64,000 nt of DNA from Burkholderia cepacia (lineage in GTDB: Bacteria > Pseudomonadota > Gammaproteobacteria > Burkholderiales > Burkholderiaceae): positions 992,001-1,056,000 of the forward strand of contig NZ_CP073637.1 in the NCBI RefSeq assembly GCF_029962485.1. Reading direction: 5' to 3'. Positions within the stretch are counted from its first letter, which is position 1. Each line of letters starts with the position of its first letter. Shown one piece after another: positions 43,906 to 48,719 of the stretch. Made by a program: the position numbers and the translations under genes. The notes below the pieces were generated by a model, which searched no databases, was not told the DNA's origin, and worked only from the letters and a program-made list of their open reading frames with translations.

Positions 43906-44103
43906 GGTCATTTCTCCAGCAGGTTCAATGATTATCAACCTCGCGCTTGGATTTATGCCAGAGGCGAATCGTTAGATTTTGTCTCTGTTGTATTAACGGC
44001 ACATGCGCTGCGACGCGAAGTGTGATGGCCGCTATTGCATCCAGCGCAATCGGCAACAATCGGGTCGCTTGTTATACTTGCGCGCACTTTTTCCTGGACC
44101 GCG

Positions 44104-44493
44104 ATGAGACGAACGACGCGATGGATCGGCCTCGTATGGCTGGCGCTGGTACTGAACGTACTGTCGCCCGTCGTCGGCTACGCGCGTCTGGCGTCGAGCG
44201 GTTCAGGCGCGCTCACGCTCGAATTGTGCAGTGCAGCGGGCGCACGCCAGGTCGTGCTCGCCCAAGCGGGCGACCAGCGCGACACGTCGTCGTTCGATCA
44301 TGCCGGCGTGCCGCACTGCGTGTACTGCCCGGGCTTTGCGGCGAACCTTGCGCTCGGCACGCGTCTGCCCGAGATGCCGGGCTTCGTGCGGACGTTCGCG
44401 TATCGCGTGGCCGCGCCGGCCGTTCCCGATTTTCCCCGCAAGGGCATCCGTCTCGCGCAGCCGCGCGCCCCGCCTGAAAACTTCCCGATCTGA
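44104..44493 (+). CDS. DUF2946 family protein, possible copper-sensing leader protein (CruR-like)
   Basis: A 129-residue protein with an N-terminal hydrophobic segment (residues 8-26), a central HCVYC (CxxC at residues 72-75) and a proline-rich end LAQPRAPPENFPI. DUF2946 genes stand directly before TonB-dependent receptor genes in beta-proteobacteria. In Bordetella pertussis such a gene (cruR, upstream of bfrG) has been reported to act as a copper-responsive upstream ORF whose nascent CxxC binds copper; I recall this from the literature and infer the same here. It is first in the operon to 48719. Confidence 0.8.
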   Translation: MRRTTRWIGLVWLALVLNVLSPVVGYARLASSGSGALTLELCSAAGARQVVLAQAGDQRDTSSFDHAGVPHCVYCPGFAANLALGTRLPEMPGFVRTFAYRVAAPAVPDFPRKGIRLAQPRAPPENFPI

Positions 44494-44504
44494 TTGATGT
44501 CGTT

Positions 44505-44525
44505 CGCGCGCCCCGGTGGCGCGCG
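44505..44525 (+). promoter_or_regulatory. GC-rich hairpin in the DUF2946/receptor intergenic leader
   Basis: Eight-bp stem CGCGCGCC/GGCGCGCG (44505-44512 with 44518-44525), 12 bases after the DUF2946 stop, in a 127-base gap. There is no T-tract. It would suit attenuation or coupling between translation of the leader gene and expression of the receptor gene. Confidence 0.45.
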
Positions 44526-44620
44526 TGCCGCCCGCGGCCCGATCCGCGTGCCGCGCCGTGCGTGCGCGGCGCGCGTGCTCGCGTCCGGCGGCGTCCGATC
44601 ACGTTTTCAGGAATTCATTC

Positions 44621-46984
44621 ATGTCGTCTCCCTACGTCGCGCGGCTGCCGCGCGGCCGGCTCGCGCTCGCATGCGCGGCCGCTTTCGCGTGGCCCGCTGC
44701 TCACGCCGCATCCGCGGGCGATGCGCGCGCCGATTCCGCCCTCGGTGGCGTCGAGCGCCCGGCCGGTGGCGCCGTGCCGGCTTCCGCGGTTGCCAGCGCG
44801 CCGCCGGCACCGGCCGGCGATACGCTGACCGCCGTCAGCGTGACCGCCCAGCGCCAACCGGTCGATCCGGATACGCCGGCCGTCGTGACGTCGATCACGC
44901 GCGAGCAGATCGAGTCGCACACCAACGTCACCACCGAGGACGCGCTGAAATACGCGCCGAACCTGATGGTCCGCAAGCGCTACATCGGCGACCGCAACAG
45001 CGTGTTCGCGGGCCGCGACTTCAACGAGCTGCAGAGTGCGCGCGGGCTCGTGTACGCGGACGGCGTGCTGCTGTCGAACCTGCTCGGGTCGAGCTATGCG
45101 TATCCGCCGCGCTGGTCGCTGATTCCGCCTGACGACATCGCGCGCGTCGACGTGCTCTATGGCCCCTTTTCCGCGCTGTATCCGGGCAACTCGATCGGCT
45201 CGACCGTGCTGCTCACGACGCGCCGCCCGGACAAGCTCGAGGCGTCGTTGTCGACGCAGTTCTTCACGCAGCGCTACCACGACGGCTACGGATTCGCGGA
45301 CAGCTTCGGCGGCAATCACCAGACCGCGCGGATCGCCAACCGTGTCGGCCGGTTCTGGTTCGCGCTGTCGCTCGACCGGCTGGAGAACAACGGTCAGCCG
45401 ATGCAGTATGCGAGCCCCAATTCGGCCTACAACCCGAAGCTGGGCGCTGTCGTGCCCGTGACGGGCGCCGCAGCCGACATCGGGCCCAACGGCAAGCCGC
45501 GGACGATCGTCGGCGCCCAGACGATCGAACGGACCGAGCAGCTCAACGAAACGGTCCGGATGGGGTACGCGTTCACCGACCACGTCGACGCGACGCTCAC
45601 GCTCGGGCATTGGGAGAACCATTACCGGCAGCACGGCGAAACCTTCCTGCGCGACGCGGCCGGTAACCCGGTCTACGGCGGCAACGTATCGATCGGCGGC
45701 CAGAACATGACCGTTGCGCCGAACGCGTTCGCGCCGCAGCGCGGCGACCAGGAGAACTGGCTGTACGCGTTCGGCCTGAACGGCCGGCTCGATTCGGGCT
45801 GGCGGCTGTCGGGCGTCGTGTCCGCGTACGACGTGTCGCGCGACGTGCTGCGCGCGGCGTCGACCGTGCAGGGCGGTGCGGGCACGCTGTTCCAGGGCGA
45901 CGGCACCGGCTGGCGCACGCTCGACCTGAAGGCCGAGGCACCGGAGGTGAAGGGCCACACGTTCACGTTCGGCTATCACTACGACAACTACTTCCTGCGC
46001 AACGTCACGTACAACACGGCCGACTGGCTGGCCGGGCCGACCACGTCGCTCGCGAGCGTCTATCGCGGCGACACGCGCACGCAGGCGCTGTTCGGGCAGG
46101 ATGCGTGGCGCTTCGCGCCGGGCTGGCTCGCGACGCTCGGGTTGCGCTACGAGCGCTGGGACGCGTATGGCGGCGCGCTCGGCAATGCGAGCGGCACGCT
46201 CGGCTATGCGGACCGCGGCGCGAATGCGCTGTCGCCGAAGGTCGCGCTGCAATGGGACGCGACGGAGGTGTGGCGCTTCCGGCTGTCGTTCGCGACCGGC
46301 ACGCGGTTCCCGACGGTCGGCGAACTGTTCCAGGGCACGATCTCGAACAATGCGATCGTCAACAACAACCCGAACCTGCGGCCGGAAAAGGCGATCGACT
46401 GGGACTTCACGGCCGAGCGCGACGTGGGTGTCGGCGTCGTGCGCGCGAGCGTGTTCCAGAGCGACCTGCGCGATTCGATCTACAGCCAGACGACCGTCTC
46501 GGGCGCGACGACCGTCACCAACATCTCGAACGTCGACCGCGTGCGCGTACGCGGCGTCGAACTCGCGTTCAGCGGCGAGAACGTCGGGCTGAAGGGGCTC
46601 GCGATCGACGCGAACGTGTCGGCAAGCAATGCGCAGATCCTCGCCGACGCCGCGAATCCGGCCTATGTCGGCGCGCGCTTCCCGCGCATTCCGCGCATGC
46701 GCGCGAACCTGCTCGCGTCGTACCGCTTCGACGAGCACTGGCTCGCGAGCGTCGGCGTGCGCTACTCGGGCCGGCAGTTCAACACGCTCGACAACAGCGA
46801 CGTGAATCCGGACGTGTATGGCGGCACGAGCTCGTTTACGGTCGTCGACCTGAAGGCGCGCTATCGCCTCGATCGTCACTGGACCGCGTCGCTCGGCATC
46901 GACAACCTGACGGACCGCCGCTACTACGTGTTCCACCCGTATCCGGGGCGCACTTTCTATGGAGAACTGAAATGGTCGCTGTGA
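44621..46984 (+). CDS. TonB-dependent outer-membrane receptor (putative copper/metal uptake)
   Basis: A 787-residue outer-membrane transporter. Signal peptide to about residue 30 (AHA-AS), then an N-terminal Ala/Pro-rich stretch, the plug domain (DTLTAVSVTAQRQ TonB-box region; LVYADGVLLSN; DDIARVDVLYGPFSALYPGN) and a 22-strand barrel ending YGELKWSL. No siderophore-biosynthesis gene is near. With a CxxC DUF2946 protein in front and metal-type partners behind, copper or another metal complex is the likely ligand, by inference. ATG 44621 gives the signal peptide; upstream codons to 44516 do not fit. Confidence 0.9.
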   Translation: MSSPYVARLPRGRLALACAAAFAWPAAHAASAGDARADSALGGVERPAGGAVPASAVASAPPAPAGDTLTAVSVTAQRQPVDPDTPAVVTSITREQIESHTNVTTEDALKYAPNLMVRKRYIGDRNSVFAGRDFNELQSARGLVYADGVLLSNLLGSSYAYPPRWSLIPPDDIARVDVLYGPFSALYPGNSIGSTVLLTTRRPDKLEASLSTQFFTQRYHDGYGFADSFGGNHQTARIANRVGRFWFALSLDRLENNGQPMQYASPNSAYNPKLGAVVPVTGAAADIGPNGKPRTIVGAQTIERTEQLNETVRMGYAFTDHVDATLTLGHWENHYRQHGETFLRDAAGNPVYGGNVSIGGQNMTVAPNAFAPQRGDQENWLYAFGLNGRLDSGWRLSGVVSAYDVSRDVLRAASTVQGGAGTLFQGDGTGWRTLDLKAEAPEVKGHTFTFGYHYDNYFLRNVTYNTADWLAGPTTSLASVYRGDTRTQALFGQDAWRFAPGWLATLGLRYERWDAYGGALGNASGTLGYADRGANALSPKVALQWDATEVWRFRLSFATGTRFPTVGELFQGTISNNAIVNNNPNLRPEKAIDWDFTAERDVGVGVVRASVFQSDLRDSIYSQTTVSGATTVTNISNVDRVRVRGVELAFSGENVGLKGLAIDANVSASNAQILADAANPAYVGARFPRIPRMRANLLASYRFDEHWLASVGVRYSGRQFNTLDNSDVNPDVYGGTSSFTVVDLKARYRLDRHWTASLGIDNLTDRRYYVFHPYPGRTFYGELKWSL

Positions 46985-48240
46985 AGTCGTTCGCGGCGGG
47001 CTGCGCGCTGTGGCTCGTGGCGCTGTCGCCCGCCGGCGCGCATGACGCGAGCGACGCGTCGAAAGCCACCGATCCGCATGCCGCGCACATGAGCATGCAG
47101 GCCGCGCCCGCACAGCAGAAGCAGCCGCTCGCGACGGGCGCCGCGTTCGATGCGCGTCACCGGCTGTGGGTCGCGTGGGTCGAAGGCGCGCACGTCGTCG
47201 TCGCGCACTCCGACGATGCGGGCCGCACGCTGTCGGCACCCGTCACCGTCAACGCGATGCCGGAGCCGGTCTACACGAGCGCGGAGAATCGTCCGAAGCT
47301 CGCGACGAGCCCTGACGGGCGCGCGGTGTACGTGTCATGGTCGATGCCGCTCGATGCGCCGTACACGGGCATGGTGCGTTTCTCGCGCTCGCTCGACGGC
47401 GGCGCGACGTGGAGCGTGCCCGTCACCGTGCATCGGGACCGGCAGGCGATCACGCATCGCTTCGACATGATGGCCGTCGATCCGGCCGGCAACATCGCGA
47501 TCGCGTGGATCGACAAGCGCGATCTCGTCGCGGCGAAAGCGGCGGGGCAGGCGTACGAAGGCGCGGCGGTCTACTACGCGGTGTCGCGCGACGGCGGCGC
47601 GTCGTTCGAGCCCGAGCGCAAGGTGACCGATCACACGTGCGAATGCTGCCGGATCGCGATGGCGATCGATCCGGCCGGACGCATCGAGGCCGCGTGGCGC
47701 AACGTGTTCCCGGGGCAGATCCGCGATCACGCGCTCGCGGTGCTGCCCGTCGCGGCGTCGGAGCCGGTCGCGCCGGTGCGGGCGACGTTCTCGAACTGGC
47801 ACGTCGAGGCCTGTCCCGAGCACGGGCCCGCGCTCGCGATCACGCCGGACGGCACGCGTCACCTTGCATGGTTCGGCGTCGTCGACGGTCGGGCCGACGT
47901 GTTCTATTCGCGCATCGGCGCCGACGGCCAGCCGCGCGGCACGCCTTGGGCATTCGGCGCGAATCCGGCGGTACCGGGCGAGCAGGCGTCGCACGCGGCG
48001 CTCGTCGCGCGCGGCGACGCCGTGTGGCTCGCGTGGAAGGCGTTCGACGGCGACACGATGCAGATCAAGCTGCGCCGGTCGGACGATCGCGGCGAGCACT
48101 GGTCGGCGCCGCGCGTGATCGCGGCGACGTCGGGCGCAAGCGACAACCCGCAATTGCTCGACGATGCGGGCCGCGTCTATCTGTCGTGGCGCACGCGCAA
48201 CGACGGTTATCGGCTGATCGCGGTGGAGGGGGCGCAATGA
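46972..48240 (+). CDS. Secreted Asp-box beta-propeller protein with CxCC motif
   Basis: A 422-residue exported protein: signal peptide to about residue 23 (AGA-HD), then a His/Met-rich start (DPHAAHMSMQ). Four Asp-box (BNR) repeats are visible: SDDAGRTL, SLDGGATW, SRDGGASF and SDDRGEHW, which gives a sialidase-like six-bladed propeller. CECC at residues 223-226 with a further EACPEHG is unlike true sialidases and could bind copper. Usual database names are exo-alpha-sialidase or BNR protein, but the arginine triad cannot be confirmed. It overlaps the receptor gene by 13 bases and the next gene by 4. Confidence 0.8.
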   Translation: MVAVKSFAAGCALWLVALSPAGAHDASDASKATDPHAAHMSMQAAPAQQKQPLATGAAFDARHRLWVAWVEGAHVVVAHSDDAGRTLSAPVTVNAMPEPVYTSAENRPKLATSPDGRAVYVSWSMPLDAPYTGMVRFSRSLDGGATWSVPVTVHRDRQAITHRFDMMAVDPAGNIAIAWIDKRDLVAAKAAGQAYEGAAVYYAVSRDGGASFEPERKVTDHTCECCRIAMAIDPAGRIEAAWRNVFPGQIRDHALAVLPVAASEPVAPVRATFSNWHVEACPEHGPALAITPDGTRHLAWFGVVDGRADVFYSRIGADGQPRGTPWAFGANPAVPGEQASHAALVARGDAVWLAWKAFDGDTMQIKLRRSDDRGEHWSAPRVIAATSGASDNPQLLDDAGRVYLSWRTRNDGYRLIAVEGAQ

Positions 48241-48719
48241 AGCGACTGATCGTGTTGCTCGGCGTTGTGCTTGCGAGCATGCCGGCGTGGGCCGGCGGTG
48301 AACCGCAGCCGCTGCGTGCGGCCGACGTCGCGCGGCTGGTTGCGACCGCAAATGGGCGACCGCTGGCAATCGAGATCTGGTCGCTCGATTGCGGATACTG
48401 TCGCGAGAACGCCGCGCATCTGGTTGCGTGGCAGCGCCGTCACCCCGACGTACAACTCGCGATGGTCGCGATGGATGCGTACGACGACAACGGTGCGGCG
48501 ATCGCGCAGGCGCTCGCGCAGATGAACCTGCCGCCGCACGTTGCACAGTATGCGAACGCGGAACCGATGCCCGAGCGTTTGCGCGCGGCACTGGATGCGG
48601 GATGGAGAGGGGAAATGCCGCGCACCGTGTGGATCGGGCGCGATGGTGCACGCGAAGCGCGCAGCGGGGTGCTGACGACCGACGTGCTGGATGGCTGGTT
48701 GCAGCACGCGAAGCGTTGA
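48237..48719 (+). CDS. Periplasmic thioredoxin-like protein
   Basis: A 160-residue exported protein with a signal peptide ending AWA-GG and a thioredoxin fold whose redox motif is CGYC at residues 52-55 (WSLDCGYC). Similar to TlpA/DsbE-type reductants. It starts within the stop of the propeller gene (ATGA), so the two are coupled; a role in keeping the CxCC cysteines reduced, or in reducing the metal, is a plausible inference. Confidence 0.82.
   Translation: MKRLIVLLGVVLASMPAWAGGEPQPLRAADVARLVATANGRPLAIEIWSLDCGYCRENAAHLVAWQRRHPDVQLAMVAMDAYDDNGAAIAQALAQMNLPPHVAQYANAEPMPERLRAALDAGWRGEMPRTVWIGRDGAREARSGVLTTDVLDGWLQHAKR

Follow-up and report, generated by a model that had tools for sequence, protein, structure and literature searches.

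A CruR-type leader operon of Burkholderia cepacia with a secreted propeller protein and a thioredoxin-like protein as a probable copper-chelate uptake system

Introduction

What is the role of a TonB-dependent receptor gene that lies between a putative copper leader and genes for a secreted propeller protein and a thioredoxin-like protein? The question is raised by a four-gene module (positions 44104-48719, all on the + strand) in a 64,000-nucleotide stretch of Burkholderia cepacia DNA, hereafter the window (NCBI RefSeq assembly GCF_029962485.1, contig NZ_CP073637.1, positions 992,001 to 1,056,000; genome of 7.70 Mb in three contigs). The module is read here, with a probability of roughly 0.7, as a CruR-controlled, copper-repressed operon for copper-chelate uptake, in which the propeller and the thioredoxin-like protein stand in the place of a PepSY_TM protein. 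An earlier, sequence-only reading of the window had proposed a copper-type uptake or handling system, and this was supported by CruR motifs with the spacing of Bordetella pertussis, by co-occurrence of the genes, and by a gene for the copper chaperone PCuAC in 9/9 propeller genomes of one genus (g283).

The known counterpart is the cruR-crtA(bfrG)-crpH operon of B. pertussis (PMC9426467, PMC12914433, PMC13038864; statements from these reports and from PMC12992588 refer throughout to the available portions of their text). It has the same DUF2946 first gene, with CXXC and RAPP motifs 45 residues apart (PMC9426467), and likewise a long gap (162 bp there, 127 bp here), a TonB receptor, and then a gene whose product is believed to work on copper in the periplasm. 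This product is CrpH, a PepSY_TM protein and, in the speculation of the authors, a copper reductase (PMC13038864); among receptors of the CrtA family, PepSY_TM comes next in over 75% of loci (PMC12914433). CruR-led copper operons with receptors are thus already known, and the propeller-thioredoxin pair is the new part.

The available text of PMC9426467 lists many partner families of CruR leaders, AhpC_TSA with its thioredoxin fold included, and names no propeller among them, and the available main text of PMC12914433 does not mention propeller, thioredoxin or Burkholderia. A literature search, which mostly did not extend to subscription papers, found no description of the propeller or its thioredoxin in connection with CruR or copper, nor any account of the pair, in line with the earlier claim that these parts are functionally undescribed. 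The release of copper from its carrier past the outer membrane is poorly known, with a PepSY_TM protein proposed for it in the literature portions available; the present locus would be a second and widespread candidate, with conserved residues, a redox partner encoded alongside and, in one family, a copper switch.

Leader peptide

On its sequence, the first gene is a CruR-type copper leader, because its product combines a DUF2946 match, CVYC, an R[A/G]PP end, and a spacing of 45 residues between the motifs equal to that of B. pertussis CruR. In the latter, a change of CXXC strongly impairs copper control and a change of RAPP abolishes expression (PMC9426467), and the arrest has been demonstrated in vitro by translation and toeprinting (PMC12992588). 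Like the RAPP/RGPP arrest peptides of that report, the window leader carries a C-terminal RAPP and its relatives RAPP or RGPP.

CVYC, R[A/G]PP and the spacing of 45 were kept in all 28 leaders compared (20 RAPP, 8 RGPP), i.e. that of the window and those of 27 of the 32 loci found with the propeller, leaving out L034, L035, L037, L038 and L040. The sequence CTTGYTATACT of the -10 region was conserved in 28 of 28 sequences, and the gap between leader and receptor was 121-130 bp in 17 of the 18 measured loci (182 bp in L031). The leader of L038, outside the set, has CPYC and RAPP, and in more distant leaders a spacing of 46 was found (L111, L112, L115, L116). The N-terminus of the leader is hydrophobic as judged by eye. 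The likeness to the Bordetella bfrG locus, to which the sequence-only reading had pointed for comparison, extends to leader motifs, spacing and the receptor in second position, and ends at the third gene, which encodes a propeller instead of PepSY_TM.

The genome encodes four DUF2946 genes, each beside a TonB receptor or copper genes. Besides that of the window, one lies with CopC and PCuAC, one with an OprC-type receptor (L006), and one with Sco (L007). DUF2946 was found in 113 of the 150 genomes examined of the family, and is therefore not specific to the propeller module. The names of the family (Burkholderiaceae) and of the GTDB class (Gammaproteobacteria) are those that we take to apply.

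Co-occurrence of the four genes

Rare co-occurrence of the four genes had been named beforehand as an observation that would tell against the module. Instead, they were found in this order on one strand in 24 of the 32 propeller-found loci (L009-L032), and in a sample of 150 genomes of the family 42 had the propeller, 37 of which carried a same-strand DUF2946 gene 2.3-4.6 kb upstream, so that the arrangement is not due to chance. The eight exceptions comprise a partial receptor match (L033), a locus without cruR match (L034), two loci cut by contig ends (L035, L036), the order propeller-thioredoxin-receptor (L037), a propeller followed by a thioredoxin-like open reading frame (ORF) and then a CruR-like ORF (L038), a broken propeller (L039), and a weak partial match (L040). 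In L033 (Paraburkholderia solisilvae) the receptor, which matches partly, would not fit into the stretch ahead of the propeller, and in L039 (B. puraquae) a change resembling a deletion has disrupted the genes of both propeller and thioredoxin. The nearest named relative locus was that of Burkholderia sp. BCC1644, with a propeller 98% identical.

All five propeller genomes without upstream DUF2946 belong to one genus, g274, two loci of which (L113, L114) retain receptor, propeller and thioredoxin. Genes for ExbB and ExbD were located between receptor and propeller in L109, L110 and L112, with TonB in addition in L112.

Copper chaperone and PepSY_TM genes

In genus g283, all nine propeller genomes (L107, L108, L119-L125) read DUF2946-receptor-propeller-thioredoxin-PCuAC (checked by Pfam on two), with a DUF2244 gene ahead of PCuAC in one of them. 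This PCuAC gene at the end of the run is an independent copper link.

A PepSY_TM gene does not follow the window receptor, where the propeller gene is located, and the three PepSY_TM matches of the genome lie elsewhere. The Pfam PepSY_TM profile was applied to 61 propeller genomes, 42 from the family and 19 from the class. In a single one (G028) it matched no more than 10 kb from the propeller, at a distance of 5.7 kb and on the other strand, and 17 had no PepSY_TM match anywhere (8/19 of the class and all 9 of g283). At DUF2946 control loci PepSY_TM was present in 4 of 11. Since the propeller-thioredoxin pair occupies the position of CrpH, it is simplest to assume that the pair does a comparable job, and the 17 genomes without PepSY_TM make the idea of substitution testable.

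Propeller protein

The third gene product is predicted to be a seven-bladed propeller of BNR type, agreeing with both the BNR_2 profile and the propeller fold. Scoring of 7998 candidates gave 1485 propeller matches at E ≤0.001. Among close homologues, C223, C225, C226 and H162 were conserved in 120/120, C281 and H297 in 118/118, H253 in 118/119, and H341 in 116/118. The CxCC motif was kept also in nine of nine distant propellers, the reading frames of which were chosen by Asp-box count. According to secondary structure assignment (DSSP) of the predicted structure, residues 105-109, 162-164, 223-227, 281-286, 341 and 391-393 precede or open blade strands, the matching strands being 109-112, 166-169, 229-232, 287-290, 340-347 and 394-398. 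As the Cys and His motifs thus recur at matching points of successive blades, CxCC, the fourth cysteine and the histidines plausibly form a single axial site in the model.

The protein had been described from its sequence as His/Met-rich. This applies to a short tail that follows the signal peptide and precedes the propeller, and not to the propeller proper: in 114 sequences, His made up 7.6% of the tail and 3.9% of the propeller, with no His in 7 of the 114 tails. The seven-bladed propeller lectins PLL/PHL and CylK were among the best listed matches, at 8-15% identity, which implies no shared function. No copper protein appeared among the best 50 listed matches of each propeller fold search, an outcome that is not counted against copper.

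Thioredoxin-like protein

The fourth gene product has a thioredoxin fold with CxxC. It stayed under every Pfam cut-off (best 14.6 vs 27 bits) and likewise under those of NCBIfam (dsbE model 15.9 vs 123.15). Most members share a motif of their own, WSxDCxxCxxE...GE[LM]PR. The fold matches listed for the thioredoxin model include many periplasmic reductants (DsbE, ResA, CcmG), from which the window protein differs in its sub-cut-off scores, its motif and its tie to the propeller. Two natural fusions of propeller and thioredoxin, in L075 (567 aa, single frame) and P0072 (526 aa), support a physical partnership. A receptor-propeller fusion (P0145, 1196 aa) was discarded, the middle being out of frame by eye and taken as frame-shift read-through.

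An alternative would retain a CruR-controlled copper importer and make the propeller only a lectin- or sialidase-like binder of a glycan or carrier, with its disulfides matured by the thioredoxin, so that neither protein touches copper. We consider this unlikely. The adjacent cysteines of CxCC and the conserved histidines, located at equivalent points of the blades, resemble a site, the listed matches of the thioredoxin model include the reductants named above, and PCuAC follows in every g283 propeller genome.

TonB receptor

The window receptor, as judged by sequence comparison, appears not to be close to CrtA-like receptors. These were represented by two stand-ins from DUF2946-receptor-PepSY_TM runs, in which PepSY_TM was confirmed with Pfam, and the identity was 24-27% over 121-257 aa. 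The locus departs from the B. pertussis cruR operon in its receptor, as far as these stand-ins represent CrtA, in the propeller instead of PepSY_TM as third gene, and in the thioredoxin that comes next. OprC-type copper receptors (TIGR01778), which can also stand behind a DUF2946 leader, as in L006, are different as well: the cut-off of the model is 472.45 bits and the window receptor scored 46.5, when the L006 receptor as positive control reached 845 bits. Across most of its length the window receptor aligned with the receptors of L034, L037, L081 and L085 (32-47%), and that of L084 gave a partial match (28%). The genome additionally encodes an OprC and two receptors that share 50% and 44% identity with one of CrtA-like type; the gene of the more similar receptor lies ca. 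300 bases from a PepSY_TM gene.

Distant loci across the class

In an evenly drawn sample of 369 class genomes, 29 had a propeller match at E ≤1e-20, 21 of them at E <1e-100. Besides that of the window there were 20 such strong matches, 19 of which were taken as distant loci (L071-L089), one at a contig edge being left out; L090 (E 2e-44) is not among them. A same-strand TonB receptor gene was upstream of the propeller in 15 of the 19 (L071-L081, L083-L086), separated from it by a small ORF in L084. In the remaining four, the receptor was on the other strand (L082), absent (L087), or replaced by a Phenol_MetA_deg barrel (L088, L089). A thioredoxin followed the propeller in 16 of the 19, fused in L075 and after about 0.5 kb in L074; none followed in L081 and L087, and L084 stops at the contig edge. 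The weaker matches L099 and L100 also read receptor, CxCC propeller and thioredoxin by eye. The propeller-thioredoxin pair exists in many lineages in which no CruR was found beside it.

Genes for RegA/PrrA-type response regulators were seen in five distant loci (L071, L077, L079, L083, L086; Pfam-checked for L086), which hints at a connection with respiration.

Proposed mechanism

The sequences establish what the leader is, how the genes are ordered and conserved, and that propeller and thioredoxin belong together; the steps that follow are proposed on this basis. By homology to Bordetella CruR, the nascent leader would, when copper is scarce, stall its ribosome at the C-terminal RAPP and thereby keep Rho away, so that transcription continues. 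Copper bound to CVYC would relieve the stall, and Rho would end transcription ahead of the receptor; copper repression in this operon would thus run through stalling and Rho, as an analogy. The receptor, energized by TonB, may then import a copper chelate through the outer membrane. On the periplasmic side, the copper would be taken or reduced by the propeller at the site of CxCC, fourth cysteine and histidines suggested by the predicted secondary structure, and the thioredoxin-like protein would keep the propeller cysteines reduced or supply electrons. Finally, periplasmic chaperones of the PCuAC or Sco kind might receive the copper on its way to copper enzymes, which are probably terminal oxidases, a step proposed because PCuAC belongs to the same gene run in g283.

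A more specific proposal is offered tentatively, at less than even odds: the propeller would be a new periplasmic copper-processing protein, the axial Cys/His site of which strips or reduces chelated copper, with a dedicated thioredoxin to recharge it. Such a protein would represent a haem-free alternative to PepSY_TM that is spread well beyond Burkholderiaceae, CruR having been added in that family. If true, the misleading database name of the propeller family, exo-alpha-sialidase, would be replaced.

Evidence against and alternative explanations

Several observations weigh against a CruR-controlled copper uptake operon. On the side of the leader, REPP stands instead of RAPP in L109 and L110, and in 9/9 g283 genomes the leaders end in SAAPPxQA, the RAPP arginine being gone. 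B. pertussis CruR requires this Arg, and the arrest may therefore work differently in g283 or be lost there. The rut-type C>G bubble was weak as well, with a peak C-G of 0.17 (44424-44501) in a sliding C-minus-G scan compared to a coding-control maximum of 0.15. This weak bubble, and the degraded end of one paralogous leader of the same genome (RRAARPRDSPFLA), would fit a leader that retains CruR motifs when copper control of the operon is weak or lost. Such a weakening or loss seems highly improbable, given that in 28 of 28 sequences neither the two motifs with their spacing nor the -10 element has been lost and the gap is near constant as described above.

On the side of the other genes, none of the 19 distant loci gave a cruR match, and besides that of the window the sole class-draw propeller genome with DUF2946 (G338) has it about 105 kb off. 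Queries with PCuAC, CopC and Sco matched nothing in the 19 distant loci, and the copper link is therefore thin outside the family. A profile of the receptor subfamily, built from five receptors of the window type, matched at E ≤1e-80 in 9 of the 369 class genomes; four of these adjoin a propeller, and the other five genomes contain no propeller match. For the propeller, no convincing solved relative was found by sequence (best E 0.038).

The triad of receptor, propeller and thioredoxin might serve another ligand, either a chelate of a different metal or a nutrient that contains a thiol or disulfide, with CruR recruited in Burkholderiaceae. The triad holds together in the 19 distant loci without cruR match, its receptors vary by lineage (a second type can be aligned only in part, over short stretches at about 22-25%), and L076 adjoins CzcA-like and CDF-like genes by eye. 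Against this stand the sharing of one run by CruR and PCuAC in g283 and the location, at copper genes, of the three DUF2946 genes that this genome has elsewhere, and we regard another ligand as quite improbable. Copper-chelate uptake under CruR control remains the preferred reading.

Coordinates and minor observations

The strict co-orientation and the overlaps of 13 bases between receptor and propeller genes (46972-46984) and of 4 bases between propeller and thioredoxin genes (48237-48240), reported by the sequence-only reading, were confirmed by the coordinates, and all the listed motifs and proteins, i.e. CVYC and the Pro-rich RAPP end of the leader, TonB receptor, CxCC propeller and CGYC thioredoxin-like protein, are present. 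At the settings of the terminator scan, neither the gap ahead of the receptor nor the sequence past the thioredoxin gene gave an intrinsic terminator.

Table 1. Features of the four-gene module, with positions in the window.
Feature	Position	Strand	Evidence or remark
Promoter-like site TCGGCA-17-TATACT, extended -10	44050..44078	+	Consensus scan: 1 found vs 0.1 expected
CruR-type leader, DUF2946, 129 aa	44104..44493	+	PF11162 53.6 bits (cut-off 23.7)
Leader CVYC codons, residues 72-75	44317..44328	+	
Leader RAPP codons, residues 121-124, 45 residues past CVYC	44464..44475	+	
Leader-receptor gap, 127 bp	44494..44620	+	Intrinsic terminator not found
TonB-dependent receptor, 787 aa	44621..46984	+	PF00593 188.9 bits (cut-off 27), PF07715 (Plug) 62.9 (23.9)
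Secreted propeller protein, 422 aa	46972..48240	+	BNR_2 31.5 bits vs cut-off 31.4 (barely above)
Propeller CECC codons, residues 223-226	47638..47649	+	Kept in close and distant homologues
Thioredoxin-like protein, 160 aa, CGYC at residues 52-55	48237..48719	+	

Barrels of Phenol_MetA_deg type recur beside propeller or DUF2946 genes (L077, L079, L088, L089, L007), and some of them bear CCGKCGG or CATCGC near the N-terminus. In L007, located in the same genome (C3:569000-580000), the DUF2946 leader with the degraded RAPP end RRAARPRDSPFLA sits between a Sco gene and such a barrel, in this case one that bears CATCGC near the N-terminus; a TlpA-like gene comes next.
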